The notes beneath the pieces were generated by a model. That model did not search any database, was not told the DNA's origin, and saw only the letters and a program-made list of their open reading frames with translations. Shown here in pieces: positions 1,826-20,177 of a stretch of DNA of 21,012 nucleotides. Each line of letters opens with the position of its first letter. Positions within the stretch are counted from its first letter, which is position 1. This stretch comes from a virus. Location: positions 1-21,012 of the IMG/VR virus record IMGVR_UViG_3300030419_005163; one strand, 5' to 3'. A program made the position numbers and the translations under genes.

Positions 1826-3799
1826 ATGTATTACAAGCCCGACACAACAATTAGACGTTTTCGATTATCTGAAGTATTTATCGATCAATATCGCGAGCAA
1901 GAGGTTCCATGGGGGCCGATTGGTTATGTCACGTTCAAAAGAACATACGCCCGAAGACTAAACGAGCAGGATCCGAACTTGGAAGGCACAGAAGAATGGT
2001 ACCAGACATGTCGCCGCGTAATTGAGGGCATGTTTACGATTCAAAAAAGACATGTTACGAAACTTGGGCTTGAATGGAACGATGCCAAGGCCCAGCGCAC
2101 CGCGAAAGAAGCATACGATAGGCTCTTCAGCTTAAAGTGGACACCTCCCGGTCGCGGCTTGTGGATGATGGGCACCAAGTTTGTTGATGAGCGCACCGGT
2201 GCAGGGTTATTTAATTGTGCTTTTCGATCGACAAAAGATATATCTTCCAAAGGTGGGTATCTTTTTGCTTGGATGATGGACGCTTTAATGGTTGGCATCG
2301 GCGTTGGCTTCGACACCAAAGGTGCTGGTACTCTTACAGTTAAAAGACCACAGTGGACAGATGATGTATTTATGATTTCCGATAGTAGAGAGGGTTGGGT
2401 CGAGTCGGTTAGAATTTTACTCGATGGTTATTTTTTCGGTAACAAAGTGCCAAAATTTGATTACTCTAAGATCAGACCCGCCGGCGCACCAATCTTAGGA
2501 TTCGGAGGCACTTCTAGTGGCGCCAAGCCCTTGATGGAGTTGCATCAGAGCTTAACAGAGATGTACAATACAAGAATTGAGGAAGAAATAACTTCGGTTG
2601 ATATTGTCGATACTGAAAACTTAATTGGACGCTGTGTTGTGGCAGGAAACGTTCGTCGCTCTGCTGCACTGGCTCTTGGTGGCTACAGCGATAAGCCATA
2701 CCTGACAATGAAGAACGATCAAGAAAAACTTATGCATCATCGATGGGGATCAAATAATTCTTTTGAGGCCGTTGTTGGAATGGACTATTCCTGGCATGCC
2801 GAGCAGAGCCAAAAGAATGGAGAACCCGGCTATATCTGGCTTGAAAACGCTAGAACTCGCGGTAGATTCAAAGATGCACCTCGCGATGATGATCGAAATG
2901 TTATGGGATTCAATCCGTGTGTCGAACAACAATTGGAAGATGCGGAGCTTTGTTGCTTGGTGGAGACATATCCAGCTAAGCATGACACTTATGAAGATTA
3001 CATCAAAACACTAAAGATTGCCTACTTGTATGGAAAAACCGTGACGCTTGTCAATACTCATTGGCCTGAGACAAATGCAATTATGCTAAAAAATCGTCGC
3101 ATTGGGTTGTCTCAATCCGGCGTTATTCAGGCATTTAACAAGCATGGCCGTAGAACAATGTTTGAGTGGTGTGACAATGCATATAGCCATGTGCAGCAAC
3201 TGGATGAAGAATATTCTGACTGGCTATGTATCCCTCGCTCTGTTCGTGTAACTAGTATTAAGCCGTCTGGCACAGTTTCGCTATTGAATGGATCCACACC
3301 GGGCGTGCACTTTCCAGAGGATGAATATTATATTAGGCGTGTGAGGTTCTCAAAAAATTCAGATTTGCTTGACACATTGGAAAAAAATGGTTATAATATA
3401 GAGGACGATGAATATTCACCAAACACTTCTGTTGTGGAGTTTCCAATTCATGAACCGTATTTTTCTAAAGGAAAGAGGGACATCAGCATGTGGGAACAGT
3501 TAGAAATTGCAGCACAATATCAGCACTACTGGGCTGACAATTCTGTATCAATTACTGTCTCTTTCAAGCCGGAAGAGGGCCCGCAAATTAAACATGCGTT
3601 GGAAATGTATGAAAGTCGTCTAAAGGCCGTCTCGTTTTTAAAATACGAGGAAACCGGCTATGTCCAAGCTCCTTATGAGCCCATAACTAAAGAGCAGTAT
3701 GAGGAGATGGCTAGTAAAACTACCCAAGTTACAAAGATCGAGACAAACAAGGCTGGTGCCGGAACTAAATTTTGTGACGGGGATAGTTGTGTTTTGTGA
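1826..3799 (+). CDS. nrdJ: AdoCbl-dependent class II ribonucleotide reductase (RTPR type)
   Basis: This enzyme would reduce ribonucleoside triphosphates to deoxyribonucleotides using adenosylcobalamin, supplying dNTPs for phage replication. It matches the monomeric Lactobacillus leichmannii-type reductase. FNPCVEQ carries the thiyl-radical Cys365 and Glu367. The reducible pair is Cys131 (LFNCAFRS) and Cys376 (ELCC), with the 365-376 spacing of the family. The C-terminal shuttle pair is Cys650 and Cys655 (KFCDGDSCVL). VVAGNVRRSA and IKPSGTVSLLNGSTPG are further family motifs. At 657 residues it is shorter than the roughly 740-residue type enzyme. ATG follows the helicase stop directly. The host must supply cobalamin and a thioredoxin or glutaredoxin, as neither is visible here. 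An internal promoter-like element lies near its 3' part. Confidence 0.93.
   Translation: MYYKPDTTIRRFRLSEVFIDQYREQEVPWGPIGYVTFKRTYARRLNEQDPNLEGTEEWYQTCRRVIEGMFTIQKRHVTKLGLEWNDAKAQRTAKEAYDRLFSLKWTPPGRGLWMMGTKFVDERTGAGLFNCAFRSTKDISSKGGYLFAWMMDALMVGIGVGFDTKGAGTLTVKRPQWTDDVFMISDSREGWVESVRILLDGYFFGNKVPKFDYSKIRPAGAPILGFGGTSSGAKPLMELHQSLTEMYNTRIEEEITSVDIVDTENLIGRCVVAGNVRRSAALALGGYSDKPYLTMKNDQEKLMHHRWGSNNSFEAVVGMDYSWHAEQSQKNGEPGYIWLENARTRGRFKDAPRDDDRNVMGFNPCVEQQLEDAELCCLVETYPAKHDTYEDYIKTLKIAYLYGKTVTLVNTHWPETNAIMLKNRRIGLSQSGVIQAFNKHGRRTMFEWCDNAYSHVQQLDEEYSDWLCIPRSVRVTSIKPSGTVSLLNGSTPGVHFPEDEYYIRRVRFSKNSDLLDTLEKNGYNIEDDEYSPNTSVVEFPIHEPYFSKGKRDISMWEQLEIAAQYQHYWADNSVSITVSFKPEEGPQIKHALEMYESRLKAVSFLKYEETGYVQAPYEPITKEQYEEMASKTTQVTKIETNKAGAGTKFCDGDSCVL
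3369..3397 (+). promoter_or_regulatory. Perfect-consensus promoter inside the RNR gene
   Basis: TTGACA at 3369-3374, a 17-base spacer, TATAAT at 3392-3397: both hexamers match the sigma-70 consensus completely. It lies in the coding sequence of RNR, about 400 bases before its stop, and could drive the zinc-ribbon, GroES and Nudix genes separately from the helicase-RNR transcript. Activity is inferred from sequence alone. Confidence 0.55.
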
Positions 3800-3807
3800 G
3801 GTGTAAT

Positions 3808-4059
3808 TTGAAATTAAATCATTTGCTACCCAGCCACTTAAGCAAGGGTCGCTGTAAAAATGGAAAGCAACATTTTTGGATACCAACCGGCGCTGTCGAG
3901 GCAAAACTGGGTGACAACGTTGCTATATGTCTTTTTTGCAAGCATTGCAATAAAAGAGAGTGGACTTTTTTAACACATAACGAATATAATATACACAAAG
4001 GAGTTATCGACAATGCGATTGAAACCAATGAATCGTCACTTGTTAATCGAATTAATTGA
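3808..4059 (+). CDS. Small zinc-ribbon-like protein
   Basis: This is an 83-residue protein of unknown role. I chose TTG at 3808 because GAGGTG just after the RNR coding end sits at a suitable distance; an in-frame TTG at 3787 would overlap RNR and has no clear ribosome binding site. Cys16 and the cluster Cys41, Cys44, Cys47 (ICLFCKHCNKREW), with nearby histidines, suggest a bound zinc ion. Similar small C-x2-C proteins are frequent in T4-like phages and are mostly uncharacterised. The 3' end overlaps the GroES-like gene by 47 bases, so the last 15 or so residues are encoded in two frames. Confidence 0.65.
   Translation: MKLNHLLPSHLSKGRCKNGKQHFWIPTGAVEAKLGDNVAICLFCKHCNKREWTFLTHNEYNIHKGVIDNAIETNESSLVNRIN
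3961..3990 (+). promoter_or_regulatory. Possible weak promoter before groES
   Basis: A perfect TATAAT at 3985-3990 lies 23 bases upstream of the GroES-like ATG. The best -35 candidate is TGGACT at 3961-3966 with an 18-base spacer, only four of six matches. A transcript starting near 3997 would begin at the ribosome binding site itself, which weakens the case. Confidence 0.25.
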
Positions 4060-4297
4060 ACACGAAGAGCAAGAAACTGACTTAGGCATTTTATTGCCGG
4101 AAAACTACAAGCCTACGCTTGATCACCATGCAGCCGTTCGCCTTCTTGACACTGCTAGCGATTGCAATCAAATTGGCAACCTTGTTGTCGGATCAACCTT
4201 TATTGTCAATCGGTCGATGATCGAAGAGGTGAGCTTCAACGGCAAAAAGTACCATGTTATTTTAGAAAATCATATAATTGGACGACTTGACTCGTAA
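4013..4297 (+). CDS. groES: GroES/gp31-like co-chaperonin
   Basis: This 94-residue protein has the outline of a 10-kDa chaperonin. It opens with MRLKPMNRHLLIE, equivalent to the 'xxPLxDRVxV' first strand. A flexible segment follows (about residues 17-32) containing GILLP, the hydrophobic tripeptide that docks GroES-type lids on GroEL. A beta-rich middle with VVGSTFIVNR and a last strand YHVILENHIIGRL match the GroES end, where the final residues specify activity. The length is close to GroES (97) and shorter than T4 gp31 (111). The ribosome binding site AAAGGAG at 3997-4003 supports this start. It would cap a GroEL ring; the same window encodes a GroEL at 18600. The homology is read from motif order, not from an alignment. 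Confidence 0.75.
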   Translation: MRLKPMNRHLLIELIEHEEQETDLGILLPENYKPTLDHHAAVRLLDTASDCNQIGNLVVGSTFIVNRSMIEEVSFNGKKYHVILENHIIGRLDS

Positions 4298-6850: not shown

Positions 6851-7054
6851 ATGAGAACCATAAATAAAATTTCATTGCAATTGACAGCGGAAGAATTGAA
6901 AGACGCTATTGAAGATTGGGTTCGTCGTGATGACGAACATGTCGCAAACCATTTGCGTGATAATCATTGTACAGTAGCTATGGGACAAATTGAAGATGTA
7001 CAAATCTTTCAACTCGATATCTCTGGAGAGTTCGTTGCAGCAGCAGAAGAGTAA
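6851..7054 (+). CDS. Small hypothetical protein (67 aa)
   Basis: This is an unrecognised acidic protein of about one helix plus two strands: ISLQLTAEELKDAIEDWVRR, then a His-rich turn (DEHVANHLRDNHC) and VQIFQLDISGEFV. AAAGGAG at 6836-6842 supports the ATG. Its 3' end overlaps the polymerase reading frame, and the best polymerase start lies 20 bases before this stop, so the two are probably translationally coupled. Nothing shows its function. Confidence 0.65.
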   Translation: MRTINKISLQLTAEELKDAIEDWVRRDDEHVANHLRDNHCTVAMGQIEDVQIFQLDISGEFVAAAEE

Positions 7055-10000
7055 AATTCCGTTCGTGGGCCTCCACGCTCATAGCGTGGCAGGCTCTATA
7101 TTTGATGCAATGGGTTATCCGCAAGAGCATATGGATTTTGCATATGAGAATGGATGCGATGCCCTGGCCTTAACTGATCACGGCAACATGAACGGCTTGG
7201 CTTATCAGGTCCTGCATGCAAAGAAAATGCAAGCGGATGGCAAAGATTTCAAACCGATTTATGGGTGTGAGGCATATTTCATTCCATCCATCGAAGAGTG
7301 GCGACAAGATTATGAAGCCGTGATGGAGGACAAGAAGAAGCGTAGAGCACATGCAAAGGAGGATCAATCTGGTGCAACAATTGAAGATGAAGACGCTAGC
7401 AAAAAAGCGATTAAAAGTATTCTTAATCGTCGTCGTCATCTTATTCTTCTAGCTCAAAATCAGACTGGATTAAATAATATTTTTAAACTTATCTCTGAGA
7501 GCTATAAGACTGAAAACTATTATCGGTATCCTCGCATGGATTACGATATGCTCGCCAAATACTCTGAGGGCGTGATAGCTGCATCTGCCTGTTTGGGCGG
7601 GGTGTATGCTGGAAACTACTGGGAGAACCGGGAGAATGGACCAGAGGCCGTCTTAGGCGCAATGCGGGAAACAACTCGCAAAATGGTGGCGATTTTTGAC
7701 GATCGTTGGTACGGCGAGTTGCAGTGGAATAATATTCCAGAGCAACATGAGTTGAATCAGTATATTATCAAGATGCATGAGGAGTTTGGCATTAAGCTGA
7801 TCTCTACAGCAGACAGTCATTATCCCAATCCAGATGCCTGGAAAGATCGGGAGCTTTATAAGCGCTTAGGTTGGCTTGGGAAGAGTCGGCCAGATTACGA
7901 AAGCACTGAGCTTCCCACGGGAACCGAAGCTATTGGATACGAATTGTACCCAAAGAACGGTGATCAGATGTGGAAATCATACAAAGACTATTCGGCGGCA
8001 TGCGGAGTTAACTATGATGACAACACAGTGAAAAACTCAATCATTGAAACACATAGGATTGCACATGAACGAATATCTACTTTTTATCCTGATAATACTG
8101 TGCGTTTGCCTGATTTTGTGGTCCCTGCAAACCTGACGGCAACGCAGGCGCTAACTCGTTTAAGTATTGATGGGCTTAAATCTTTTGACTTGCATGCAGA
8201 TCAAGAATATATCGATAGACTTAAGCACGAATTGCACGTCATTGATGATCGAGGTTTTAGTAAATACTTTCTCACAATGAAGGCAATTTCAGATAGGGCA
8301 TCGGGAATGATGCTCACTGGCCCGGGCAGAGGTTCAGCTGCTGGGTCATTGGTGGCATATGTCTTGGGAATTACGCAGGTTGATCCAATCAAGTACGGCT
8401 TGCTGTTCTCTCGCTTCTTACGTTCCGACGCAACTGACTATCCTGATATCGACTACGATGTCGCTGATCCGATGCAACTAAAAGAAAAGCTGATTGAAGA
8501 GTGGGGTGAGGATACTGTCGCCCCCATCTCCAATTGGAATACTTTGCAGCTTCGATCTTTGATCAAAGACATCTCAAAGTTTTATGGAATTCCATTTACG
8601 GAAGTCAATCCAGTGACCGGCCGCATGCTGCATGAGGCCAAGGGACCTGCAAAGAAGAAGCACGGCATTAAGGCTGGTGTTTATAACCCAACCTTTGAAG
8701 AGGTGATGGAGTTTAGCACATCTCTCCAGGCTTTCTTGAGGAAGTACCCGCACGTCAAGACTCATGTTGAGGCTCTTTATGGACAGGTGCGCTCTTGTTC
8801 TCGACATGCCGGCGGGGTGGTGGTCGCAGAGAACCTAGATCAATACATGCCGTTAATTAATTCAGGCGGTGTACGACAAACTCCATGGAGCGAAGGCCAG
8901 AATGTACGACATCTTGAGCCCATGGGCTTCATTAAGTTCGATATCCTTGGTCTTTCCACTTTGCGAATGATCGAGGGGTGTATCGAGCACGTTCTTCGTC
9001 GGCACCATGGAGTTGAAAATCCGACATTTGCACATGTGAGGGACTACTACAATCAACATCTTCACCCGGATGCAATTGATCTCAATGATCAGGAGGTATA
9101 TAAAAATATATTTCACAAGGGCAAATGGGCAGGAATTTTTCAATTCACTGAAGCTGGTGCGCAAGATTTTTGCAAACTAGCAAAGCCAACGAGCCTTATC
9201 GATATTTCAGCTATCACTTCAATTTATCGACCTGGGCCATTGAGCGCCGATGTTGATAAACAATTTGTTGAAGCTAAGGAATCTCCGCAATATATTAAAT
9301 ATATGTCTGAAGAGGTGCGAGAAATCACCGAAGAAACATATGGCTTTCTAATCTTTCAGGAACAAATTGCTCTGTTGGCTCACAAGCTAGGAAAAGATCT
9401 GACCCTTGATGAAGGTAACCTGCTTCGCAAGCTACTTACTAAAAAAGGAACAGGCAAGGGCAATGAGGCGAAGACGAAGATTTATGAAAAGTTTATGCAA
9501 GGCTGCAGCGAAAAAGGCATGCAAAAAGTGGATTCCCAAAAACTATGGGACACTTTTGAGTATTTCTCTGGGTATGGTTTTAATAAATCACACGCTGTCT
9601 CATATTCAATCTTGTCGTTTCAATGCGCATGGCTAATGAATTACTATCCAGTAGAATGGATGGCAGCATTTCTTGACAAAGAGCCCGAGAGCAGAAAAGA
9701 AAAGGCAATTAATATTGCCAAGCAACACGGTTTCAACATTGAGACAGTTGACATTAATCGTTCTGGTATGGTGTGGGAAATTATAGGAAATGATAGCACG
9801 CTTGTTCAACCTTTAAGCTCTATTAAAGGACTGGGCGAAAAGGCAATTGAACAAATTATTAATTACAGACCGTTCAACACAATTGAGGAATTTTTGTTTC
9901 ACGACGACATCAGCTACTCTAAATTAAATAAAAAATGTTTGGACGTGCTGGTTAGATCTGAGGCACTAACTTCTTTGATGGATGATCGTTTTGCGAACAT

Positions 10001-10469
10001 GAAACATTTTTGGTACTGCGTGGCCGTCGATCGAGTTCGCAAGGCTGGCAAGTTTCATGAGAATATCGAACTTACAAAAGACGAGCCAGACTTTACCGAA
10101 GAGGAGAAGATTCAATACCTTGTTGATTTAACTGGTATTTTTCCAATGAACAGGGTAGTTGATGAGAAGATTTTACGCAACTTGAGCGATAAATATATTC
10201 CTCCAATCTCCGAGTATGATTCAGAATTGCAGTTGACTTGGTTTATTCCGCGTGATATAATTCCAAAGAAGACAAAGAATGGAAAAACATATTGGATTGT
10301 TGAGGTAATTGATTCTACTAGTGCGCTAACAAAGATTAAATGTTGGGGAGTGAATCCAAGCCGAGATATAATTTATGTAAATCGTCCTTATCTTGCAAAA
10401 CTAGATTTCGATCCTCAATGGGGATTCTCAACTCGTTCAATTAGGCACAATTTTAGGTTATTAGGATGA
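7035..10469 (+). CDS. dnaE: DNA polymerase III alpha subunit (DnaE type) with apparently intact PHP domain
   Basis: This is the chain-elongating replicative polymerase, 1144 residues, close to bacterial DnaE (about 1160). The PHP domain is at residues 10-290 with all expected metal ligands: H14, H16, D24, H49, E79, H135, C186, D260, H262. The C-family polymerase core has GPGRGSAAGS (429-438), catalytic PDIDYD (D471, D473) and KFDILGL (D636). YRPGP, FQEQ and GYGFNKSHAVSY follow, then helix-hairpin-helix-like and C-terminal OB-fold-like regions (LTWFIPRDI near 1075). I chose TTG at 7035, with GGAGAG upstream; in-frame TTG 6990 and ATG 6996 would overlap the previous gene more and have weaker ribosome sites. 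No separate proofreading exonuclease or sliding clamp is visible in the window. It overlaps ClpP 1 by four bases. Confidence 0.95.
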   Translation: MQQQKSKIPFVGLHAHSVAGSIFDAMGYPQEHMDFAYENGCDALALTDHGNMNGLAYQVLHAKKMQADGKDFKPIYGCEAYFIPSIEEWRQDYEAVMEDKKKRRAHAKEDQSGATIEDEDASKKAIKSILNRRRHLILLAQNQTGLNNIFKLISESYKTENYYRYPRMDYDMLAKYSEGVIAASACLGGVYAGNYWENRENGPEAVLGAMRETTRKMVAIFDDRWYGELQWNNIPEQHELNQYIIKMHEEFGIKLISTADSHYPNPDAWKDRELYKRLGWLGKSRPDYESTELPTGTEAIGYELYPKNGDQMWKSYKDYSAACGVNYDDNTVKNSIIETHRIAHERISTFYPDNTVRLPDFVVPANLTATQALTRLSIDGLKSFDLHADQEYIDRLKHELHVIDDRGFSKYFLTMKAISDRASGMMLTGPGRGSAAGSLVAYVLGITQVDPIKYGLLFSRFLRSDATDYPDIDYDVADPMQLKEKLIEEWGEDTVAPISNWNTLQLRSLIKDISKFYGIPFTEVNPVTGRMLHEAKGPAKKKHGIKAGVYNPTFEEVMEFSTSLQAFLRKYPHVKTHVEALYGQVRSCSRHAGGVVVAENLDQYMPLINSGGVRQTPWSEGQNVRHLEPMGFIKFDILGLSTLRMIEGCIEHVLRRHHGVENPTFAHVRDYYNQHLHPDAIDLNDQEVYKNIFHKGKWAGIFQFTEAGAQDFCKLAKPTSLIDISAITSIYRPGPLSADVDKQFVEAKESPQYIKYMSEEVREITEETYGFLIFQEQIALLAHKLGKDLTLDEGNLLRKLLTKKGTGKGNEAKTKIYEKFMQGCSEKGMQKVDSQKLWDTFEYFSGYGFNKSHAVSYSILSFQCAWLMNYYPVEWMAAFLDKEPESRKEKAINIAKQHGFNIETVDINRSGMVWEIIGNDSTLVQPLSSIKGLGEKAIEQIINYRPFNTIEEFLFHDDISYSKLNKKCLDVLVRSEALTSLMDDRFANMKHFWYCVAVDRVRKAGKFHENIELTKDEPDFTEEEKIQYLVDLTGIFPMNRVVDEKILRNLSDKYIPPISEYDSELQLTWFIPRDIIPKKTKNGKTYWIVEVIDSTSALTKIKCWGVNPSRDIIYVNRPYLAKLDFDPQWGFSTRSIRHNFRLLG

Positions 10470-11068
10470 AAATTACATATAAAAAAGATCCATTACTTCA
10501 TAAAGTTGAATTGCATCGCACGCCTGTTATTATTCGTGTAAATAAATTTGATGAAAAGTCTGCTCAAGAGTTTTCTGAAAAAATGAGCGATGCACACAAC
10601 ACCGGCCAGCCAGTAATTCCAATTGTTATTGATTCATATGGTGGTCAAGTGTATTCGCTAATGGCAATGATTTCAGAGATTGAGCATTCGGAAGTTCCTG
10701 TTGCAACAATTGTTGAAGGTAAGGCGATGTCCTGTGGTGCGATCCTTTTTTCCTTTGGGCAGAGTGGTATGCGATTCATGGATCCAAATGCTACCGTGAT
10801 GATTCACGATGTATCGTCTATGGAGAGGGGCAAGGTTGAGGAAATCAAGGCGTCAGCAGAAGAAACTGAAAGACTTAATAAAAAAGTATATACCATGATG
10901 GCTCGCAATTGCGGAAAGAGAGATGATTATTTTTTAAAGATTGTGCATAAAAAAGGACATGCAGATTGGTTTTTAGATGCCGATGAGTGTCTAAAGCACA
11001 AGTTGGCGAATCATGTTCGCGTGCCAAAGTTTAATCTTGAGGTCGCAGTTGATTTTAGTTTTGAATAA
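10466..11068 (+). CDS. clpP: ClpP-like serine protease 1 (Ser-His-Asp triad)
   Basis: This 200-residue ClpP/crotonase-fold peptidase would assemble into rings and degrade unfolded or delivered substrates. The oxyanion strand has IDSYGGQ (56-61). The nucleophile is Ser89 in GKAMSCGA, the His is His114 in VMIHDVS, and Asp167 in HADWFLDADE sits at the E. coli Asp171 position, so the triad is complete. ATG overlaps the polymerase stop (ATGA). No ClpX, ClpA or other AAA+ unfoldase is visible here, so a host unfoldase or unassisted peptidase action is likely. Head-maturation protease is an alternative role, as ClpP-fold proteases do this in some phages, but no capsid gene is next to it. Confidence 0.9.
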   Translation: MKITYKKDPLLHKVELHRTPVIIRVNKFDEKSAQEFSEKMSDAHNTGQPVIPIVIDSYGGQVYSLMAMISEIEHSEVPVATIVEGKAMSCGAILFSFGQSGMRFMDPNATVMIHDVSSMERGKVEEIKASAEETERLNKKVYTMMARNCGKRDDYFLKIVHKKGHADWFLDADECLKHKLANHVRVPKFNLEVAVDFSFE

Positions 11069-11071
11069 TTG

Positions 11072-11100
11072 TTGACAAAGTAATTTTTAGAGGTTATAAT
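11072..11100 (+). promoter_or_regulatory. Consensus promoter whose -10 touches the next start codon
   Basis: TTGACA at 11072-11077, a 17-base spacer, TATAAT at 11095-11100, both perfect. The last two bases of the -10 form the first two bases of the ATG at 11099. A transcript from this promoter would start near 11107, after that ATG, so it would serve downstream genes (and perhaps an in-frame ATG at 11114), while the ATG at 11099 needs read-through RNA. Confidence 0.7.
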
Positions 11101-11305
11101 GTATAAAGATCAAATGGTCTACAAGGTTGGCGACTTAGTTAAAGTGGGTTACCCGCAAGATCGGCTACGAACCATCGGTTTAGTGGTTTCGATTAACGAG
11201 AATTCTACAATCTATGGAGTCAAATTTGGAAAATACGTGCAGAACTTTCACTACTCATTTATACAACCACTATCTAGAAAAAATTGCCAAGGAGATATAA
11301 AATGA
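11099..11305 (+). CDS. Small SH3-like beta-barrel protein
   Basis: This 68-residue product is mostly predicted beta-strand: YKVGDLVKVGYP, RTIGLVVSINEN, STIYGVKFGKYVQNF, followed by FIQPLS. This is the look of a small SH3/KOW-type barrel, which often binds nucleic acid or protein, but no specific family can be named. AGAGG five bases before ATG 11099 is a good ribosome binding site; ATG at 11114 is an alternative on transcripts from the overlapping promoter. The stop lies just past the start of the next gene. Confidence 0.65.
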   Translation: MYKDQMVYKVGDLVKVGYPQDRLRTIGLVVSINENSTIYGVKFGKYVQNFHYSFIQPLSRKNCQGDIK

Positions 11306-11565
11306 ACGAACAAAATGAAAAGGAACTTATGATTGTTGAATACATTAAGTCCCTAAAAACTCTAGAGGATGCGATGGAGCCCTATAAGGATCAGCGCAGA
11401 GATCTCAAGAAGTCATATCAAGAAAATGGATGGCTGACCCGCGATGAAATTAGTCTCGCTGTTAAGGCATATCGACTCATGAAGAGTGGAGATGACCTTG
11501 ACGATCTCTATGATATGTATAGCCTGCTACGAAAAGCAAAAGGTCCAACAGCGAATGCTTCTTGA
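11302..11565 (+). CDS. Small helical protein, possibly GapR-like in layout
   Basis: This is an 87-residue all-helical protein. I chose ATG at 11302, behind a strong AAGGAG; the upstream in-frame TTG at 11284 has none. Two long helices (ELMIVEYIKSLKTLEDAMEP and YKDQRRDLKKSYQ) lead to ENGWLTRDEISLAVKAYRLM and a final helix LDDLYDMYSLLRKA. The order 'basic coiled coil, xxGx, AVKAYRLxK, acidic turn, LYxMY' is reminiscent of GapR/DUF2312, an AT-rich-DNA-binding protein family. That is a weak impression from pattern only. It overlaps the dUTPase gene by 11 bases. Confidence 0.65.
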   Translation: MNEQNEKELMIVEYIKSLKTLEDAMEPYKDQRRDLKKSYQENGWLTRDEISLAVKAYRLMKSGDDLDDLYDMYSLLRKAKGPTANAS

Positions 11566-12019
11566 ATATTGTAGAGTAAGACCTGACGTGAAGCCCCCAA
11601 CAAGGGGGCACCCGTCTGATGCGGGACTCGATGTATATTATTGCCCAGATAACCCAAGCGAGGTTGGTGTTAATTTAAAGCCCGGTGATAGTAAGATTCT
11701 ACCAACGGGCCTTCGCTTTGGTGTGCCGCACGGCTATATGCTGGAGGTGAAAAACCGATCAAGCATGGCCTCAAAACGAAGTTTAATTGTCGGAGCGTGC
11801 GTAGTTGATTCTGGATATGATGGGGAGGTGTTTATAAATCTTCACAATATTGGATCCGAGGATCAATTTGTTGCGGCCGGCACTAAAATTGCACAGGTAG
11901 TAATGATTCCAGTTGTTTCGTTTAGAGCAATTGAGTCTTCAGCTAGCGATCTTTACGATTGGTATCCGATTACCATTAGCGATCGCGGCAAGGGAGCCTT
12001 GGGGAGCACCGGGGAATGA
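11555..12019 (+). CDS. dut: dUTPase (deoxyuridine triphosphatase)
   Basis: This enzyme hydrolyses dUTP to dUMP and pyrophosphate, keeping uracil out of DNA and feeding dTMP synthesis. The 154-residue trimeric-type protein has the five family motifs in order: SDAGLDV (21-27), NRSS (67-70), VVDSGYDG (83-90, with the Asp85/Tyr88 pocket), GTKIAQVV (109-116) and RGKGALGSTG (144-153). In motif 5 the usual Phe that stacks on uracil is Leu149, a mild deviation that could lower affinity. I chose ATG at 11555, just before the first strand; an earlier in-frame ATG at 11486 would overlap the previous gene heavily. It overlaps the next gene by four bases. Confidence 0.92.
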   Translation: MLLEYCRVRPDVKPPTRGHPSDAGLDVYYCPDNPSEVGVNLKPGDSKILPTGLRFGVPHGYMLEVKNRSSMASKRSLIVGACVVDSGYDGEVFINLHNIGSEDQFVAAGTKIAQVVMIPVVSFRAIESSASDLYDWYPITISDRGKGALGSTGE

Positions 12020-12573
12020 ACCGACAGCAGGAAAGTGAAAATTTTAAAAAATTGCAATTTAGTGCTGATTTAGCCAAGTTAGTAAAACACACTAGGCAGG
12101 TAGGCTTTTTTAATATGGGCGAAGATGCCTCGTTTCCTCATATCGAGTTTGCAATTCCAGACACGCAGATAAAAGATCGTTACTGGTGCAAAGACGATAG
12201 CAATTGTGGTGAAAATCTTTATGAGTATACACTCAGAAACACCAGAACAACAAAAATAATATATGATTATGACGCGACTTATTTTAAGGATATTTATAAT
12301 TTATTATCTGCAAAATATAAACTTGGCAGGATGAGGCTTCTTGGCCTACAGCCAAATCGCTCGCTGTCATGGCACAGGGAACCTGATGAAAGAATCGTCA
12401 TCCCGGTGATCACTAATCCTGGCGCGCATATGGTCATAGGGGGTGAAAATAAGCACCTCCCTGCTGATGGTTCAGCTTGGTATTGCGACACGACAAAATT
12501 CCACACAGCTTTTAATGGAGGCTTTGACCTTCGGGTACATTTAATTATTACTTATAATGGTGAATTAGGATGA
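12016..12573 (+). CDS. Putative 2OG-Fe(II) oxygenase, aspartyl hydroxylase-like
   Basis: The C-terminal 80 residues have the signature of the Asp/Asn beta-hydroxylase-like cupin fold. SWHREPDERIVIPVITN gives His120 and Glu122 (or Asp124) as the first iron ligands. GSAWYCDTTKFHTAFNGG gives His163 as the distal ligand. DLRVHLII gives Arg173 and His175, where the 2-oxoglutarate-binding Arg is expected. The N-terminal 100 residues are less clear and include YWCKDDSNC. Such enzymes hydroxylate amino acid side chains or modify nucleobases and small molecules; phages carry many uncharacterised ones. It lies in a tight operon of ATGA overlaps between dUTPase and a zinc ribbon. The HxE form of the first ligand pair needs structural modelling. 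Confidence 0.7.
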   Translation: MNRQQESENFKKLQFSADLAKLVKHTRQVGFFNMGEDASFPHIEFAIPDTQIKDRYWCKDDSNCGENLYEYTLRNTRTTKIIYDYDATYFKDIYNLLSAKYKLGRMRLLGLQPNRSLSWHREPDERIVIPVITNPGAHMVIGGENKHLPADGSAWYCDTTKFHTAFNGGFDLRVHLIITYNGELG

Positions 12574-12827
12574 ACAGACGACAACGCCGAGCCGCAGCAA
12601 AAGCAGCAAAGAAGGGTGGAAATGAAGAACTTTCCGAGAAAATTTTTTTATTCAACCAGATGCCAGACGAGTGCATGGCGTGCTTAAAGCCGTTTGACAA
12701 GCAAGACAAACAGATGGTGATGGAGTGGAGCGTGGTCGTGAGAGAGGAAGAGAAGGTCGTGAGACTCTATTGCCCAGATTGTTGGGACAAGGCTACAAAA
12801 TTAATAAAAGAATTGGAGGATAAATGA
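12570..12827 (+). CDS. Small basic zinc-ribbon protein
   Basis: This 85-residue protein starts MNRRQRRAAAKAAKKGG, a highly basic leader suited to RNA or DNA contact and common as an N-terminus in phage proteins. It continues into a four-cysteine zinc ribbon: Cys35/Cys38 (ECMAC) and Cys68/Cys71 (YCPDC). Between the knuckles is a beta-hairpin (MVMEWSVVV...KVVRLY). The fold suggests nucleic-acid or protein binding, with no catalytic residues. Both ends overlap neighbours by four bases, so it is expressed with the oxygenase-like gene and the next small gene. Similar proteins recur in marine T4-like phages to my knowledge, without known function. Confidence 0.75.
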   Translation: MNRRQRRAAAKAAKKGGNEELSEKIFLFNQMPDECMACLKPFDKQDKQMVMEWSVVVREEEKVVRLYCPDCWDKATKLIKELEDK

Positions 12828-13024
12828 TTTATACAGCAATTTTTCAATATGATGATGGCCGCCTGCGTTCAGAGATACACAACGCGCCACCAGATCGAGA
12901 TCTTGCATGGAAGCAGATCTATGAGGGTCGGAATCAGACAGACGCTTGTTTGATTGTACTGATTACCGGCAATCACTATATTTTTACATACCAGGATTTA
13001 CAAAGGATAGAAGATGAATATTAA
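12824..13024 (+). CDS. Small hypothetical protein (66 aa)
   Basis: I do not recognise this protein. It is a compact alpha/beta protein: strand MIYTAIFQYDDGRL, helix DRDLAWKQIYEG, strand CLIVLITGNHYIF, helix TYQDLQRIEDEY. The ATG overlaps the previous stop (ATGA), with AATTGGAGG upstream as ribosome binding site. It overlaps the IMPDH/GMPR gene by 11 bases. No motif suggests an activity. Confidence 0.65.
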   Translation: MIYTAIFQYDDGRLRSEIHNAPPDRDLAWKQIYEGRNQTDACLIVLITGNHYIFTYQDLQRIEDEY

Positions 13025-14042
13025 ACATACAATTTGTTACGATGATGTGCTGTTAGTGCCCCAATATTCAAGCATCCAGTCGCGAAAAGAGATTGATATT
13101 AGCAACTCTTTGTCGGACATCGAGTTTTCAATGCCGATTATTTCTGCCCCAATGGATACAGTTACAGGAGCAGCGATGACGAAAATTTTGGACAACAAGG
13201 GTGGCCTTGGAATTGTTCATCGCTACAACACAATAGAGCAACAAGTTAAGATGATCAAGCGTGCCCATCGAATGCATGGTGCAAAAAATGTTGCGGCTGC
13301 AATTGGTGTCACTGGAGACTATATTGATAGGGCCATTGCGCTGCATGAAGCCGGTGTTAAAATTCTATGTATCGACGTGGCACACGGTCACCACACAATG
13401 ATGCGACACTCTTTGGAAGTCTTGCGCAACACGATCGGCACAACAGCACACATCATGGCTGGGAATGTTGCAACACTCGAAGGCTTTAACGACCTGTCGG
13501 ACTGGGGCGCTGACTCAATCAGGGTTGGAATTGGTGGCGGTTCAATCTGCTCCACCAGAACACAAACTGGCCATGGCGTACCAACGCTACAATCAGTGAT
13601 TGATTGTTCCAGATCTGATCGCGATGCAAAAATTATCGCAGATGGCGGAATTAGGACTTCTGGAGATATCGTCAAAGCGCTTGCAGCAGGCGCAGACTTT
13701 GTAATAGTTGGATCATTGTTGGCCGGGACCACACAAGCTCCTGGTGAAGTCTTTTACCAAGATGGCGAAAGATACAAAACCTATCGAGGCATGGCATCAG
13801 CAGAGGCCCAGAAAGATTGGCGCGGATCGACCTCTTCATTAGAGGGTATATCAACGAGCGTCCCTTACAAAGGAGATGCAGCCGATGTGCTGGAGAATTT
13901 AGAGCGTGGTATTAGAAGCGGCCTATCGTATACTGGCGCTAGCGATTTGAAAGAGTTACGCGCCAAAGCGAAGTTTATTTTGCAGTCAACCGCCGGCATT
14001 CAAGAAAGTGCCACGCACATCCAGTGGAGATATGATCGGTGA
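13014..14042 (+). CDS. IMP dehydrogenase/GMP reductase family enzyme, no CBS domains
   Basis: This is a TIM-barrel purine enzyme of 342 residues. Family features are CYDDVLLVPQYSS at the start, SAPMDTVT (44-51), the catalytic Cys loop GGGSICSTRTQTG with Cys179 and Thr181, IADGGIRTSGDIVKALAAGA as the phosphate-binding region, and YRGMASAEA plus EGISTSVPYKG near the flap. It could make XMP from IMP (towards GTP) or IMP from GMP. The length matches GMP reductase (about 347) or a CBS-less IMPDH; normal IMPDH has an inserted CBS pair and about 490 residues. SAPMDTVT and SICSTR favour the IMPDH side, but the flap Arg-Tyr pair of IMPDH is not clear. I therefore leave the direction open. RBS: AAAGGAT at 13001-13007. 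Confidence 0.88.
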   Translation: MNIKHTICYDDVLLVPQYSSIQSRKEIDISNSLSDIEFSMPIISAPMDTVTGAAMTKILDNKGGLGIVHRYNTIEQQVKMIKRAHRMHGAKNVAAAIGVTGDYIDRAIALHEAGVKILCIDVAHGHHTMMRHSLEVLRNTIGTTAHIMAGNVATLEGFNDLSDWGADSIRVGIGGGSICSTRTQTGHGVPTLQSVIDCSRSDRDAKIIADGGIRTSGDIVKALAAGADFVIVGSLLAGTTQAPGEVFYQDGERYKTYRGMASAEAQKDWRGSTSSLEGISTSVPYKGDAADVLENLERGIRSGLSYTGASDLKELRAKAKFILQSTAGIQESATHIQWRYDR

Positions 14043-14365
14043 GTTATGGCAATTCGCGAAAAAAGATAATGTTTTATGACACAGATAAGCGTCATGCTGA
14101 TTTAAAAATAAGATTACAGCACGATGATCTGTCTCAATCAGAGTTTTTTCGCGCCATTGTTACTGGTTATTTAAACAAATGCGATTTAATAATTGAGTTT
14201 ATTAATGAGTATAAGTCAAAAAATAGAAAACAAAGCATTAAAAATATTAGCACATCTGAAAGGCTAATAATTAAAGGCAAAAACATGGAGAGTAAATTGA
14301 ATTTGAATAATGACGAGAGGGAAGACATTTTTGACATAATTGCAAAGGAACACCCTGACTTATGA
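14039..14365 (+). CDS. Ribbon-helix-helix-like small protein
   Basis: This 108-residue basic protein is started by GTG at 14039, overlapping the previous stop (GTGA), with GGAG about ten bases upstream. Residues 22-50 (DLKIRLQHDDLSQSEFFRAI and on) follow the Arc/MetJ pattern: a short strand of alternating residues, then two helices, so a dimeric DNA-binding domain is plausible. The rest is a lysine-rich helix and an acidic C-terminus (EREDIFDIIAKEHPDL). Proteins of this kind occur in T4-like marine phages as far as I recall, without assigned function. It is coupled by ATGA to a second putative regulator, so the pair may act together in transcription switching. Confidence 0.7.
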   Translation: MSYGNSRKKIMFYDTDKRHADLKIRLQHDDLSQSEFFRAIVTGYLNKCDLIIEFINEYKSKNRKQSIKNISTSERLIIKGKNMESKLNLNNDEREDIFDIIAKEHPDL

Positions 14366-14607
14366 AAAATAAAAGATGTTGGGAAAGAAACAATAATTGC
14401 AAAAATAAAAAATGTCGCTACTGGATAGATTTTCCAGAAGATAATTGCTGTAGCCTCATCGCAATTAAAAAAAATGGGTCAATGAATTTAAGACAAATAG
14501 CAGAACGAGAAAACATAAGCTATGCAAGAGTGAAGCAAATTCAAGATGCCGCACTAATTAAATTAAAGAAGCGCGGCCTTAACCTTGTTGATTTTTTATA
14601 CAAGTAA
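14362..14607 (+). CDS. Cys-rich protein with sigma-70 region 4-like helix-turn-helix
   Basis: This is an 81-residue protein of two parts. Residues 1-35 hold five cysteines (6, 13, 18, 29, 30), probably a zinc-binding knuckle. Residues 40-75 (SMNLRQIAERENISYARVKQ and on) match the sigma-70 region 4 motif, equivalent to 'TLEEIGxxxxVTRERIRQIExxALxKLR'. That region normally reads the -35 element and contacts the RNA polymerase beta flap. There is no region 2, so it is not a complete sigma factor. It could redirect host RNA polymerase, as phage co-activators do, or simply bind DNA. It is coupled to the ribbon-helix-helix-like gene and precedes the acidic virion-type gene, a likely switch point. 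Confidence 0.75.
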   Translation: MKNKRCWERNNNCKNKKCRYWIDFPEDNCCSLIAIKKNGSMNLRQIAERENISYARVKQIQDAALIKLKKRGLNLVDFLYK

Positions 14608-14670
14608 ATAAGGTTATTTAGCAATTTCACAACTATTTAATAACAGTTATTCTTTTAGGAGATTTTACAC

Positions 14671-15261
14671 ATGAGCAAGAAGACACTTTTAAGCGAAGCG
14701 CAGGTCCGACGTTGGATGTCGTTAGCTAACATTGAGCCCGTTGAGCAGCTTAAAACGCTGTCCGAGAACGGTCTACATCCCGGTGCACGCGACGACGAGA
14801 TGGGCATGGGCGAGGATCCAGGTATGGATATGGGCGCCCCAGAAGGCGAGGACATGATGGACGACGATATGCCCGATGAAGAGGGCGCTGGTAGTGAGCA
14901 ATTAGCCCCAGAGGCCATTGAGGCACTTGAGGTTGCCGCCGAAGCAGCTGCTGACGCTATGCTTGACGCACTCAGGCCATATGGCGTTGAGGGCGATGCT
15001 TCCCGCGAAGGTGAAGATGAGATGGAGGAGCCTGCTGCCGAAGACGAGCCCATGGGCGATATGCCACCGGGTGATGAAGGCGATGATGAAGAAATGGATA
15101 TGATGGAAGGTATCGAACTAATTGACGACGAGGAATTAGTTGAGCAGGTATTGAGCCGCGTAACCAACAGGCTTAGAACCGAGCAGCAGCGCCGGCACCG
15201 AGCTAAGAAGATTGATCAGATTGCCGAGCGAATTGCTAGCAAGATTTCAAAACTCGGATAA
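14671..15261 (+). CDS. Very acidic, Met-rich probable virion or scaffold protein
   Basis: This 196-residue protein has three parts. The N-terminus (LLSEAQVRRWMSLANIEPV) is a motif I associate with structural or prohead-core proteins of T4-like marine phages. A long low-complexity middle (about 40-150) is rich in Asp, Glu, Met and Gly. The C-terminus is a basic helix (LVEQVLSRVTNRLRTEQQRR and on). Acidic scaffold or core proteins occupy phage proheads and are later cut or expelled; ClpP-fold proteases are encoded nearby. No enzyme motif is present. AGGAG at 14658-14662 supports the ATG, and a terminator follows. The 63-base gap before it holds no clear promoter. Scaffold identity is inferred from composition and family memory. 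Confidence 0.75.
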   Translation: MSKKTLLSEAQVRRWMSLANIEPVEQLKTLSENGLHPGARDDEMGMGEDPGMDMGAPEGEDMMDDDMPDEEGAGSEQLAPEAIEALEVAAEAAADAMLDALRPYGVEGDASREGEDEMEEPAAEDEPMGDMPPGDEGDDEEMDMMEGIELIDDEELVEQVLSRVTNRLRTEQQRRHRAKKIDQIAERIASKISKLG

Positions 15262-15289
15262 TCTTTGAAGCTCTTCTTTTAACATAAAC

Positions 15290-15320
15290 ATGCCACCGCA
15301 TGAGCGGTGGCATTTCATTT
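15290..15320 (+). terminator. Rho-independent-type terminator
   Basis: A perfect 10-base-pair stem (ATGCCACCGC at 15290-15299 and GCGGTGGCAT at 15304-15313) with the loop ATGA is followed by TTCATTT. The stem is GC-rich and strong; the T tract is short and interrupted. It sits between the acidic protein stop and the next ribosome binding site, so it probably ends or attenuates the upstream transcript. Confidence 0.8.
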
Positions 15321-15332
15321 GATGAGGTGATA

Positions 15333-15710
15333 ATGAATATATACTTACTTGGCACGTTGTGTTTTATTTTTGGATATGCAACGTGCAGAATGTTGACGGC
15401 TCTTTTTAATTTAGGGCTAGCCAGCATTATTGTTAAACAAGCTGGCCAAGATGCATTAAACTTATTAAAGGTTGCCGCTGAAGATGTTGCATTTATTAAG
15501 CAGCTTAAGCACAAAACAATGATTGAAAGCGGCCTCTCAGAGACGCAGTGTGAATCGGCAAAACTATTGTTTGATCAAAGTATTGACAATTGGAAACGAT
15601 CTGCAATAATAAAGTATGTCGCGATATATCCAAAACATTTTAGGAGTCAACTTAAATTTCACGATTGGGACTCAGCCATGGCGTATTTAACTAAAATTCA
15701 CACAAAATAA
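15333..15710 (+). CDS. Membrane-anchored hypothetical protein (125 aa)
   Basis: The product starts with a single hydrophobic helix (MNIYLLGTLCFIFGYATC, residues 1-18, possibly extending to about 37). A soluble helical domain follows with VKQAGQDALNLLKVAAEDVA and WKRSAIIKYVAIYPKHF. I chose ATG at 15333 because GAGGTG precedes it; the in-frame ATG at 15300 lies inside the terminator hairpin. A weak promoter-like element is embedded near its 3' end. No known family is recognised; an inner-membrane anchor for a phage assembly or lysis factor is possible. It lies 30 bases before ClpP 2. Confidence 0.7.
   Translation: MNIYLLGTLCFIFGYATCRMLTALFNLGLASIIVKQAGQDALNLLKVAAEDVAFIKQLKHKTMIESGLSETQCESAKLLFDQSIDNWKRSAIIKYVAIYPKHFRSQLKFHDWDSAMAYLTKIHTK
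15583..15610 (+). promoter_or_regulatory. Possible promoter before ClpP 2
   Basis: TTGACA at 15583-15588, a 16-base spacer and AATAAT at 15605-15610 (five of six). It is inside the upstream membrane-protein gene and about 130 bases before the ClpP 2 start. A separate TATAAT at 15715-15720 lies closer but has no acceptable -35. Either could serve ClpP 2; neither is convincing. Confidence 0.3.
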
Positions 15711-15740
15711 GTGTTATAATCTACAATACTGGAGATACAA

Positions 15741-16373
15741 TTGAGATTCAATGAACAATTAAAAGCCGACGATAAGGTCACCACGGCCATAGCACACAGT
15801 GCCGTCGAAGATGAGATGCGAACGATCGGTATCGTTGGCGATGTTGACGAAGAAAAGTGTGCAGAGATATTGTACTCGCTGATTGTATTACAAAAATCAG
15901 CAAAAATTATCGTACCCGAGGATCCCGAGGATCCAGATACTGGCGTCACACAAATCGTAAGACCGATTGAATTTATTATATCCACATGTGGTGGATCGGC
16001 TGATGAAATGTTTGCTTTGTACGATGTTATGAGAAACGTACAAAAAGATTGTGATATAATTACACGCGGCTTAGGCAAAGTAATGTCAGCCGGCGTGTTA
16101 CTCTTAGCTGCTGGAACAAAAGGCAAGAGAGAGATAGGCAAGCATTGTAGGGTTATGATCCATAGTGTAATTGCCGGCAATGCTGGCTCCTTTCACAATC
16201 TGGAAAACGAGATGGAAGAGGTCAGAAATACACAAGAGCAATACATTAAGGCTTTGGTTGGAGAAACCAACATGACTACAAGACAACTAAAAAAGATGTT
16301 AGAAAGAAAGGTAAATATTTATCTTACAGCACAAGAAGCGGTCGAATTGGGTATTGCTGACATAATTATATAA
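15741..16373 (+). CDS. clpP: ClpP-like serine protease 2 (Ser-His-Asn)
   Basis: This is a second ClpP-fold peptidase, 210 residues, distant from ClpP 1 of this window. TTG at 15741 has GGAG six bases upstream. The substrate-binding strand has ISTCGGSADE (80-89). The nucleophile is Ser116 in GKVMSAGV, and the His is His141 in VMIHSV. The position of the catalytic Asp holds Asn192 in KVNIYLTAQEAVELGIAD (codon AAT at 16314-16316). Ser-His-Asn triads are known, for example in Listeria monocytogenes ClpP1, which works in a mixed complex with ClpP2. An acidic insert (EDPEDPD, residues 60-66) interrupts the N-terminal part. A phage-specific, regulated or mixed protease is inferred; a prohead protease remains possible. 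Confidence 0.88.
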   Translation: MRFNEQLKADDKVTTAIAHSAVEDEMRTIGIVGDVDEEKCAEILYSLIVLQKSAKIIVPEDPEDPDTGVTQIVRPIEFIISTCGGSADEMFALYDVMRNVQKDCDIITRGLGKVMSAGVLLLAAGTKGKREIGKHCRVMIHSVIAGNAGSFHNLENEMEEVRNTQEQYIKALVGETNMTTRQLKKMLERKVNIYLTAQEAVELGIADIII

Positions 16374-18599: not shown

Positions 18600-20177
18600 T
18601 TGTCAGATTTTAAAATGGCATTTGATTCAAATGCGTCACTAAACCAGAAGATTCTTGATGGTGTCAATGTTCTAGCAGATAACGTAGCTACAACCTTGGG
18701 TCCAAAGGGAAGAAATGTTATATTACAACAGAAGGGTGCCGACCCTATCATTACAAAGGATGGTGTAACTGTTGCACAGTTTGTTCATTTAGACGATCCG
18801 TTTATGAATTCCGGCGCACAGATAATTAAGCAGGCTGCGGTTCAGACCAATTCCGATGCTGGCGATGGAACAACAACATCGACAGTTTTAGCAAGAGCGA
18901 TCTTGGCACAGTCCCAGACCTATTTGGCCACCGGTATTTCGCCAGTTGAGCTTAAGCGTGGTATCGACAAGTGCTCAAAGGCTATTGTAAACCGGTTAAA
19001 AGATATGGCTGACCCCGTTAAAAGCGAGGAGGACATCGCACATGTTGCTACAATTTCGGCTAACAATGACGCAGCGATTGGAAAACTAATTGCCACCGCT
19101 GTTGATCGCGTTGGAAAAGATGGTGCAATCACCATCGAGGAAGCGAGGTCTATGAGTACCTCGCTGGACATCGCTGAGGGGTTTAGCTTTGATTCTGGCT
19201 TTTGTGCTACCGCGTTTATCACTGATGAGCGAAGAGGCACCATGCATTATGATGAGCCACTTATCTTGGTTACCGACTACAAGGTGACAACCGTCGAGCA
19301 GATACTTCCAATCCTTGAAATCGTAGCAAGAGAGGGTCGTCCATTTGTGTTGGTAGCTGAAGACGTTGAAGGTCAAGCGTTGGCTGCTATGATAATGAAT
19401 GCAATGCGCGGATCTCTAAAAGTCGCAGCAATTAAGGCACCAAGATATGGAGAAGAGCGTAGGGGCATACTAAGCGATTTAGCCATTTCTGTCAATGCTA
19501 CTTTTATATCGCGAGAATCAGGAACGAAACTACATGAAACCACTTTGGATATGCTTGGTACAGCCATGTCTATCGAATGTACAAGAAACTTTACTACAAT
19601 CGTTGGCGGCAATTCCAATTATGAATTGGTAGAAAAGCGAATTGAATCGCTCAAGTCCGAACTGACCCGCACAGAATCCATGCACGATTGTGCACGCATT
19701 CAAGAGCGCATTACGAGATTGGCCAGTGGCGTTGCTGTCATTAAGGTGGGTGCTGCCACGGAGATTGAGATGACAGAGAAAAAGCATCGCATTGAGGATG
19801 CGCTGGAAGCTGTCCGATCAGCGCAGCTTGAGGGAATCGTTCCTGGCGGCGGGACAGCGCTGCTGCGTGCCATCAAGGGGCTGAAGGTTGATTATGACAA
19901 TGAAGACCAGCGCCTGGGCATTGAGATTGTAAAGAGGGCGGTTCAAGAACCCATTAGACAAATGGCGCTTAATTCTGGGGAGTCTCCAGACATTATTGTT
20001 CGGATGGTTTCAAAACGCTCCGGTTCGCACGGGTATGATTTTCGTAATGGCAAGATTGTAGACATGATTGAATCAGGAATTATTGACCCTGTGAAGGTGA
20101 CATGTTCTGCTGTGACCAATGCCGCATCTGTCGCCGGAACCCTTATTACAACAAATTATGCAATTGTTGAGATTTAG
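18600..20177 (+). CDS. groEL: GroEL (60-kDa chaperonin)
   Basis: This 525-residue group I chaperonin would form the folding chamber, presumably closed by the GroES-like lid encoded at 4013. ATP-site motifs are present: LGPKGRNV, KDGVTVA, GDGTTT (88-93, Asp89) and RIEDALEA (Asp400, the E. coli Asp398 equivalent). IKVGAATE and GIVPGGGTALL are further family blocks. E. coli GroEL has 548 residues; the missing part is mainly the C-terminal GGM-rich tail, as the protein ends at TTNYAIVEI. In the host protein that tail lines the cavity. TTG at 18600 is supported by GAGGTG; ATG at 18615 is an alternative. It is a single-gene transcription start behind a strong promoter. Host-derived ancestry is inferred. 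Confidence 0.95.
   Translation: MSDFKMAFDSNASLNQKILDGVNVLADNVATTLGPKGRNVILQQKGADPIITKDGVTVAQFVHLDDPFMNSGAQIIKQAAVQTNSDAGDGTTTSTVLARAILAQSQTYLATGISPVELKRGIDKCSKAIVNRLKDMADPVKSEEDIAHVATISANNDAAIGKLIATAVDRVGKDGAITIEEARSMSTSLDIAEGFSFDSGFCATAFITDERRGTMHYDEPLILVTDYKVTTVEQILPILEIVAREGRPFVLVAEDVEGQALAAMIMNAMRGSLKVAAIKAPRYGEERRGILSDLAISVNATFISRESGTKLHETTLDMLGTAMSIECTRNFTTIVGGNSNYELVEKRIESLKSELTRTESMHDCARIQERITRLASGVAVIKVGAATEIEMTEKKHRIEDALEAVRSAQLEGIVPGGGTALLRAIKGLKVDYDNEDQRLGIEIVKRAVQEPIRQMALNSGESPDIIVRMVSKRSGSHGYDFRNGKIVDMIESGIIDPVKVTCSAVTNAASVAGTLITTNYAIVEI

Follow-up and report, generated by a model that had tools for sequence, protein, structure and literature searches.

We analysed a viral record of 21,012 nucleotides, IMGVR_UViG_3300030419_005163 (this whole stretch is referred to as the window), and found that it carries two genes of the family of ClpP, a barrel-shaped protease, on the plus strand. 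The clpP-A gene (10466–11068, 200 amino acids (aa)) has a start that overlaps the stop of dnaE (6990–10469), and clpP-B (15741–16373, 210 aa) begins with a TTG codon at 15741 behind a GGAGA sequence (15731–15735). Both products matched PF00574 (cut-off 20.2 bits), ClpP-A with 90.1 bits (E 2e-25) and ClpP-B with 101.1 bits (E 9e-29). Alignment revealed a Ser-His-Asp triad in ClpP-A, made up of Ser89 (codon 10730–10732), His114 (10805–10807) and Asp167 (10964–10966). ClpP-B contained Ser116 (16086–16088) and His141 (16161–16163), and the Asp expected of a ClpP was replaced by Asn192 (16314–16316, AAT). An earlier note on this DNA had proposed two divergent ClpPs at 10466–16373, one Ser-His-Asp and one Ser-His-Asn with its Ser and His intact, and both proposals were borne out. 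To our knowledge nearly all known ClpPs have a catalytic aspartate, and a Ser-His-Asn ClpP has essentially been a rarity of Listeria-like bacteria.

The AlphaFold2 model of ClpP-A (mean predicted local distance difference test score 89, predicted template modelling score 0.85) had ClpPs as its best PDB matches (Z 23, root-mean-square deviation 2.6 over 162 residues), and that of ClpP-B (85 and 0.79) matched PDB ClpPs with Z 25 and a deviation of 1.3 over 162 residues, so that both proteins are predicted to adopt the ClpP fold. In both models the acid position falls at a short strand or immediately ahead of it, as it does in ClpP. The stretch that precedes the second strand is longer in ClpP-B, where the model shows it as a hairpin, and its length differs between members. 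The two proteins are about 20% identical to each other, and ClpP-B is about 30% identical to Escherichia coli ClpP. Against the bacterial ClpP equivalog TIGR00493 they scored 62.9 (ClpP-A) and 69.9 bits (ClpP-B) versus a cut-off of 308.6, and sequence comparison suggests that they are relatives of bacterial ClpP rather than orthologues.

The asparagine was then followed across the family, for which the ClpP-B profile matched at least 593 related stretches. Among distinct ClpP-B-family proteins from viral contigs, the Asn192 column held Asn in 159 of 162 and Asp in 3, and the Asn codons were AAT in 113 cases and AAC in 46. The third base thus varies while the amino acid stays constant, indicating selection for Asn. 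The catalytic Ser and His were kept in 130/130 aligned ClpP-B proteins, and the paired glycines were unchanged among aligned members. With Asn this constant under alternating codons and with Ser and His retained throughout, the site is being maintained by selection rather than decaying; Asn192 is a conserved trait, neither chance nor a sequencing error, and we rejected a decaying pseudoenzyme on the Ser/His conservation. The ClpPs of other phages were all Ser-His-Asp (16/16), including both of Bacillus phage vB_BcoS-136. Several of these share with ClpP-B a two-residue insertion before the acid (‘KVNIY’ versus ‘KVDWY’), and because of this shared insertion Asn192 can be placed opposite the catalytic acid without a gap at that point, so that its column is no artefact of the alignment. 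When GTDB genomes were searched with the ClpP-B profile, 28 stretches fitted the peptide patterns, none of them was a relative, and no bacterial source was found there.

The reservation attached to the earlier note, that a different acidic residue might occupy the ClpP-B active site, was checked by alignment and no such residue emerged. The nearest candidate, E188, varies among members, D207 belongs to a general GLxD motif, and the alignment of family members contained no other nearby invariant acid specific to ClpP-B. A timed deamidation of Asn192 to Asp is unlikely: the next residue was Ile or Val in 73/73 of the first-aligned members, and Asn followed by Ile or Val is a slow deamidation context. 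In most ClpP-B members the acid position is immediately preceded by a Glu/Asp-Arg/Lys pair, in a region which we take to be the ring–ring sensor in other ClpPs. Loss of the acid, together with the existence of dead subunits in mixed rings, could also make ClpP-B a catalytically dead structural subunit like the ClpR of cyanobacteria and plastids. Such a subunit would be expected to lose the Ser, the His and the paired glycines that ClpP-B retains, and the loss of catalytic Ser or His that marks ClpR was not seen, which makes a dead subunit quite improbable.

The ClpP-A family keeps the canonical site. Asp was found at the catalytic-acid column in 85/86 homologues, the lone exception (L160) reading ‘NDYL’ at that position, which is probably an alignment shift, and the catalytic Ser and His were invariant in 81 family proteins. 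ClpP-A has a 57% match in LR756511, a 595 kb metagenomic phage. On one viral contig (L098) a distance of about 6 kb separates two genes for A-type ClpPs (3143–3907 and 10001–10600). Another non-canonical triad, Ser-His-Glu, occurred in the second ClpP beside ClpP-A of two-ClpP phages of 281 kb (G001) and 284 kb (G048), at L166:8755-9465 and L320:643-1335. The second ClpP of G001, G004, G005 and G011 was considered as a B partner and rejected, because it belongs to another type, in which the acid position is Glu.

We found that the two genes belong to a conserved cluster, dnaE–(clpP-A)–dut–guaC–136-aa open reading frame (ORF)–clpP-B–(508-aa ORF)–groEL. In loci having both clpP genes, dnaE was the nearest recognised gene before clpP-A in 39/43 and GroEL was present in 36/43. 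In 39 distinct loci clpP-A immediately followed dnaE, the two often overlapping or abutting, and in 59 it was not in the segment; in the loci compared in a tree it was present behind dnaE in 37/90. In about 40 loci the two clpP genes shared a cluster and an orientation, and one Asn and one Asp triad per genome was found in the window and about 40 relatives. On the tree of 90 B proteins the presence of A changed about 6 times versus 29 for shuffled labels, and A is therefore clade-structured, with few gains or losses. ClpP-B is a core member of an uncultured T4-type lineage and ClpP-A is accessory. The Asn was kept in 37/37 A-bearing and 50/53 A-less members of the tree, where A-less means that no clpP-A lies between dnaE and clpP-B, and a second ClpP may lie elsewhere. 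Three reversions to Asp (L079, L214 and L310) were independent and all fell in A-less loci; a coupling of reversion to the absence of ClpP-A is suggestive, not significant. In every B-bearing record with a classified second ClpP other than A, this second ClpP was Ser-His-Asp, namely in G029, G032 and G044 (one type) and in G047 (yet another). G002, G003 and G006–G008 had ClpP-A only, and G030, G031 and G033 had ClpP-B only, with no second ClpP found in G033.

The closest precedent is the ClpP1/ClpP2 pair of Listeria monocytogenes, which likewise combines one Ser-His-Asn and one Ser-His-Asp ClpP in one genome. Listeria ClpP1 (Asn172) alone forms mostly inactive heptamers and reaches active-state alignment in the ClpP1/2 heterocomplex, which boosts ClpX-dependent proteolysis about 10-fold; the Asn of ClpP1 favours the inactive state, and the mixed particle relieves it (PMC5361862). 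The phage pair differs in that its Asn subunit is a core gene often found without the Asp partner A, and in that its sequences share only about 20–30% identity with one another and with E. coli ClpP. A second precedent for a ClpP pair with a non-canonical third residue is Pseudomonas plecoglossicida ClpP1/ClpP2, in which one member is Ser-His-Pro, the heterotetradecamer is more active, and Ser and His are essential while the third residue is not; the same work terms the Ser-His-Asn triad rare (PMC12900304). That pair is bacterial, has Pro instead of Asn, and its canonical partner binds ClpX. Bacillus phage vB_BcoS-136 resembles the window in having clpP1 and clpP2 in one phage, one of them near dnaE, but both of its ClpPs are Ser-His-Asp.

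Based on these parallels we propose, with a probability of about 0.5, that the phage brings its own Clp subunits for proteolysis during infection, and that ClpP-B is a low-activity subunit which ring pairing and an AAA+ unfoldase switch on. The phage would use these subunits for regulated proteolysis in the infected cell, not for capsid maturation. The Ser-His-Asn site would be a preserved catalytic variant whose intrinsic activity is low, and ClpP-B would become active once it has assembled in a double ring and an AAA+ unfoldase has docked. In most cases the host would supply this unfoldase, as ClpX or ClpA, and a capture of host ClpX, raised in the earlier note, may thus occur; two relatives encode a ClpX of their own. 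With ClpP-A or another Ser-His-Asp ClpP, as in the window, a mixed A7B7 particle that keeps B active would be the most probable arrangement, as in Listeria ClpP1/2; in the window phage ClpP-A is, by analogy, the likeliest ring partner. A-less phages would have to make do with another Ser-His-Asp ClpP, with host ClpP or with unfoldase docking alone. We infer by analogy the ring assembly, mixing, low stand-alone activity, unfoldase docking and substrates of ClpP-B. More tentatively, the Ser-His-Asn ClpP fixed in this widespread lineage of aquatic phages may be a latent protease, switched on only by assembly with a Ser-His-Asp ring of phage or host origin and an unfoldase.

It is possible, if clearly less probable than the proposed activation by pairing and docking, that A and B are separate homo-oligomeric proteases with different jobs, the Asn only tuning the rate of B and no mixing taking place. 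The identity of only about 20% between them, the wide occurrence of each without the other and the differences between their docking surfaces fit such a division of labour. It is harder to reconcile with the conserved co-oriented pairing described above and with the precedents of Listeria, Mycobacterium and P. plecoglossicida, in which divergent ClpPs do mix.

We also looked for the unfoldase that activation of ClpP-B would need. None is encoded within the 21-kb window, as the earlier note had correctly stated. A B-bearing relative with the same cluster (G038, 54.7 kb) encodes a 436-aa ClpX, which scored 629 bits versus an equivalog cut-off of 359 and carries a zinc finger and an RSIGF loop. 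Record 3300010883_000104 encodes a ClpX 72% identical to it, together with a Ser-His-Asn ClpP-B. In LR756511, which has an A-type ClpP, a canonical ClpX over the equivalog cut-off was found (L162:2146-3504). No match to the ClpS adaptor was obtained in 28 records. Further ATPases were seen in phages with other ClpP contents. The huge metagenomic phage LR756508, which has an A-type ClpP, encodes an Hsp100-type ATPase with an IGF motif (L163:1538-3511), and G002, a 236 kb relative whose only ClpP is ClpP-A, has close to GroEL a gene for a full-length ClpB-like disaggregase (L161:2563-5169). The latter was rejected as a ClpA, having a ClpB-type profile and no IGF loop. In two viral contigs of 180–224 kb (L331 and L332, about 9330–11680) clpX directly follows clpP, and its frame is split into two ORFs of 170 and 265 aa, possibly by an intron, an intein or a frameshift.

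Several observations weigh against activation of ClpP-B by pairing and unfoldase docking. The ClpX-docking pocket is degraded in both ClpPs: counted as hydrophobic positions among eight core ones, E. coli ClpP has 8, the B family a mean of 4.6 and the A family a mean of 3.1, and the window's A and B have 3 each, compared with 6 in the B of the ClpX-bearing relative. Most relatives searched yielded no unfoldase: 48 further B-bearing records, the majority of them fragments, gave no ClpX, and in other large ones none over the cut-off was found. The three reversions to Asp are too few, the chance of all being A-less amounting to about 0.2. Furthermore, clpP-A is missing between dnaE and clpP-B in 53/90 compared loci, and the 184–186 kb records G030 and G031, which may be incomplete, yielded no second ClpP; B would therefore have to work without a phage partner in many members. 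The Listeria-like Asp/Asn split pointed out in the earlier note proved genuine and conserved, and an obligate mixed ring of A and B was not supported.

The persistence of ClpP-B without a phage partner in large records, and the wide distribution of ClpP in bacteria (12/14 control genomes), would suit a phage–host hybrid in which ClpP-B joins host ClpP and the Clp protease is redirected or slowed during infection. We regard such a hybrid as unlikely, given the low identity of ClpP-B to E. coli ClpP and its inserted hairpin before the second strand.

Processing of the prohead by one or both ClpPs had been another suggestion of the earlier note, and the best PHROG matches do carry the name head maturation protease. 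This role was disfavoured by the relatives. Among the records of large relatives, a gp23 capsid protein was found in 14/16 and a gp21-type S77 protease in 9/16, and all five B-bearing records >150 kb had both, far from the ClpP genes; capsid maturation therefore already has its own protease. No capsid gene was recognised near either ClpP, and the scores against NF045542 (Clp_rel_HeadMat) were 62.1 for ClpP-A and 53.2 for ClpP-B versus a cut-off of 120. We consequently rejected ClpP-A and ClpP-B as prohead proteases, a function that now seems very improbable. We take the window to be part of the genome of an uncultured T4-type phage, with no close isolate in the phage collection (best ClpP-B match 31%, best DnaE about 30% identity). 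The lineage having T4-type gp23 and gp21 also has the DnaE-type polymerase III alpha subunit (6990–10469).

The gene cluster of the window is co-oriented throughout. Its order is DnaB-like helicase, ribonucleotide reductase, GroES-like, NUDIX, DnaE, ClpP-A, dUTPase and Asp/Asn hydroxylase-like, then IMPDH/GMPR, a sigma-region-4-like ORF, an acidic ORF, the 136-aa ORF, ClpP-B, an endolysin-related ORF, the 508-aa ORF and GroEL; the ribonucleotide reductase, NUDIX and dUTPase were assigned by eye. DnaE (plus strand, as are those that follow) was identified as DNA polymerase III alpha with TIGR00594 (598 bits), and clpP-A, when present, lies at its 3′ end. The IMPDH/GMP-reductase-family gene guaC (13014–14042; PF00478, 4e-104) is syntenic, being part of the conserved cluster. 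A GroES-like co-chaperonin (4013–4297; PF00166, E 9e-6, over cut-off) and a GroEL chaperonin downstream of clpP-B (18600–20177; TIGR02348, 611 bits, over cut-off) share the cluster with both ClpPs. The 136-aa ORF (15300–15710) adjoins clpP-B upstream, shows by eye a hydrophobic N-terminal stretch and had no PHROG or Pfam match. In 163/227 B loci (not de-duplicated) no other recognised gene lay closer to clpP-B on its upstream side, and the ORF is a possible candidate for a membrane partner or adaptor of ClpP-B.

Phage Clp systems are already known: ClpP, ClpX, ClpA, ClpB and ClpS have been described in Agrobacterium phage Atu_ph07 and a jumbo phage survey, and the accessible text of these reports contains no Asn triad (PMC6102473, PMC7824862). 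Nishimura et al. 2017 described T4-like marine genomes (one of 183 kb) and named ClpP among the genes of their environmental genomes, and the accessible text gives no analysis of triads or pairing (PMC5332604). The open-licence PMC papers searched contained no phage family of ClpPs with a fixed Ser-His-Asn triad. The family described here has hundreds of viral members, with the Asn fixed and three natural reversions to Asp, and its partners vary from A to other Ser-His-Asp ClpPs, none, or a ClpX of its own. This variation amounts to a natural experiment that addresses both the reason why ClpP's catalytic acid is dispensable or regulatory and the way in which phages run targeted proteolysis. 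If ClpP-B is indeed a latent protease, the virus would gain a conditional protein-degradation machine, and loss of the partner would select for a return to Asp.

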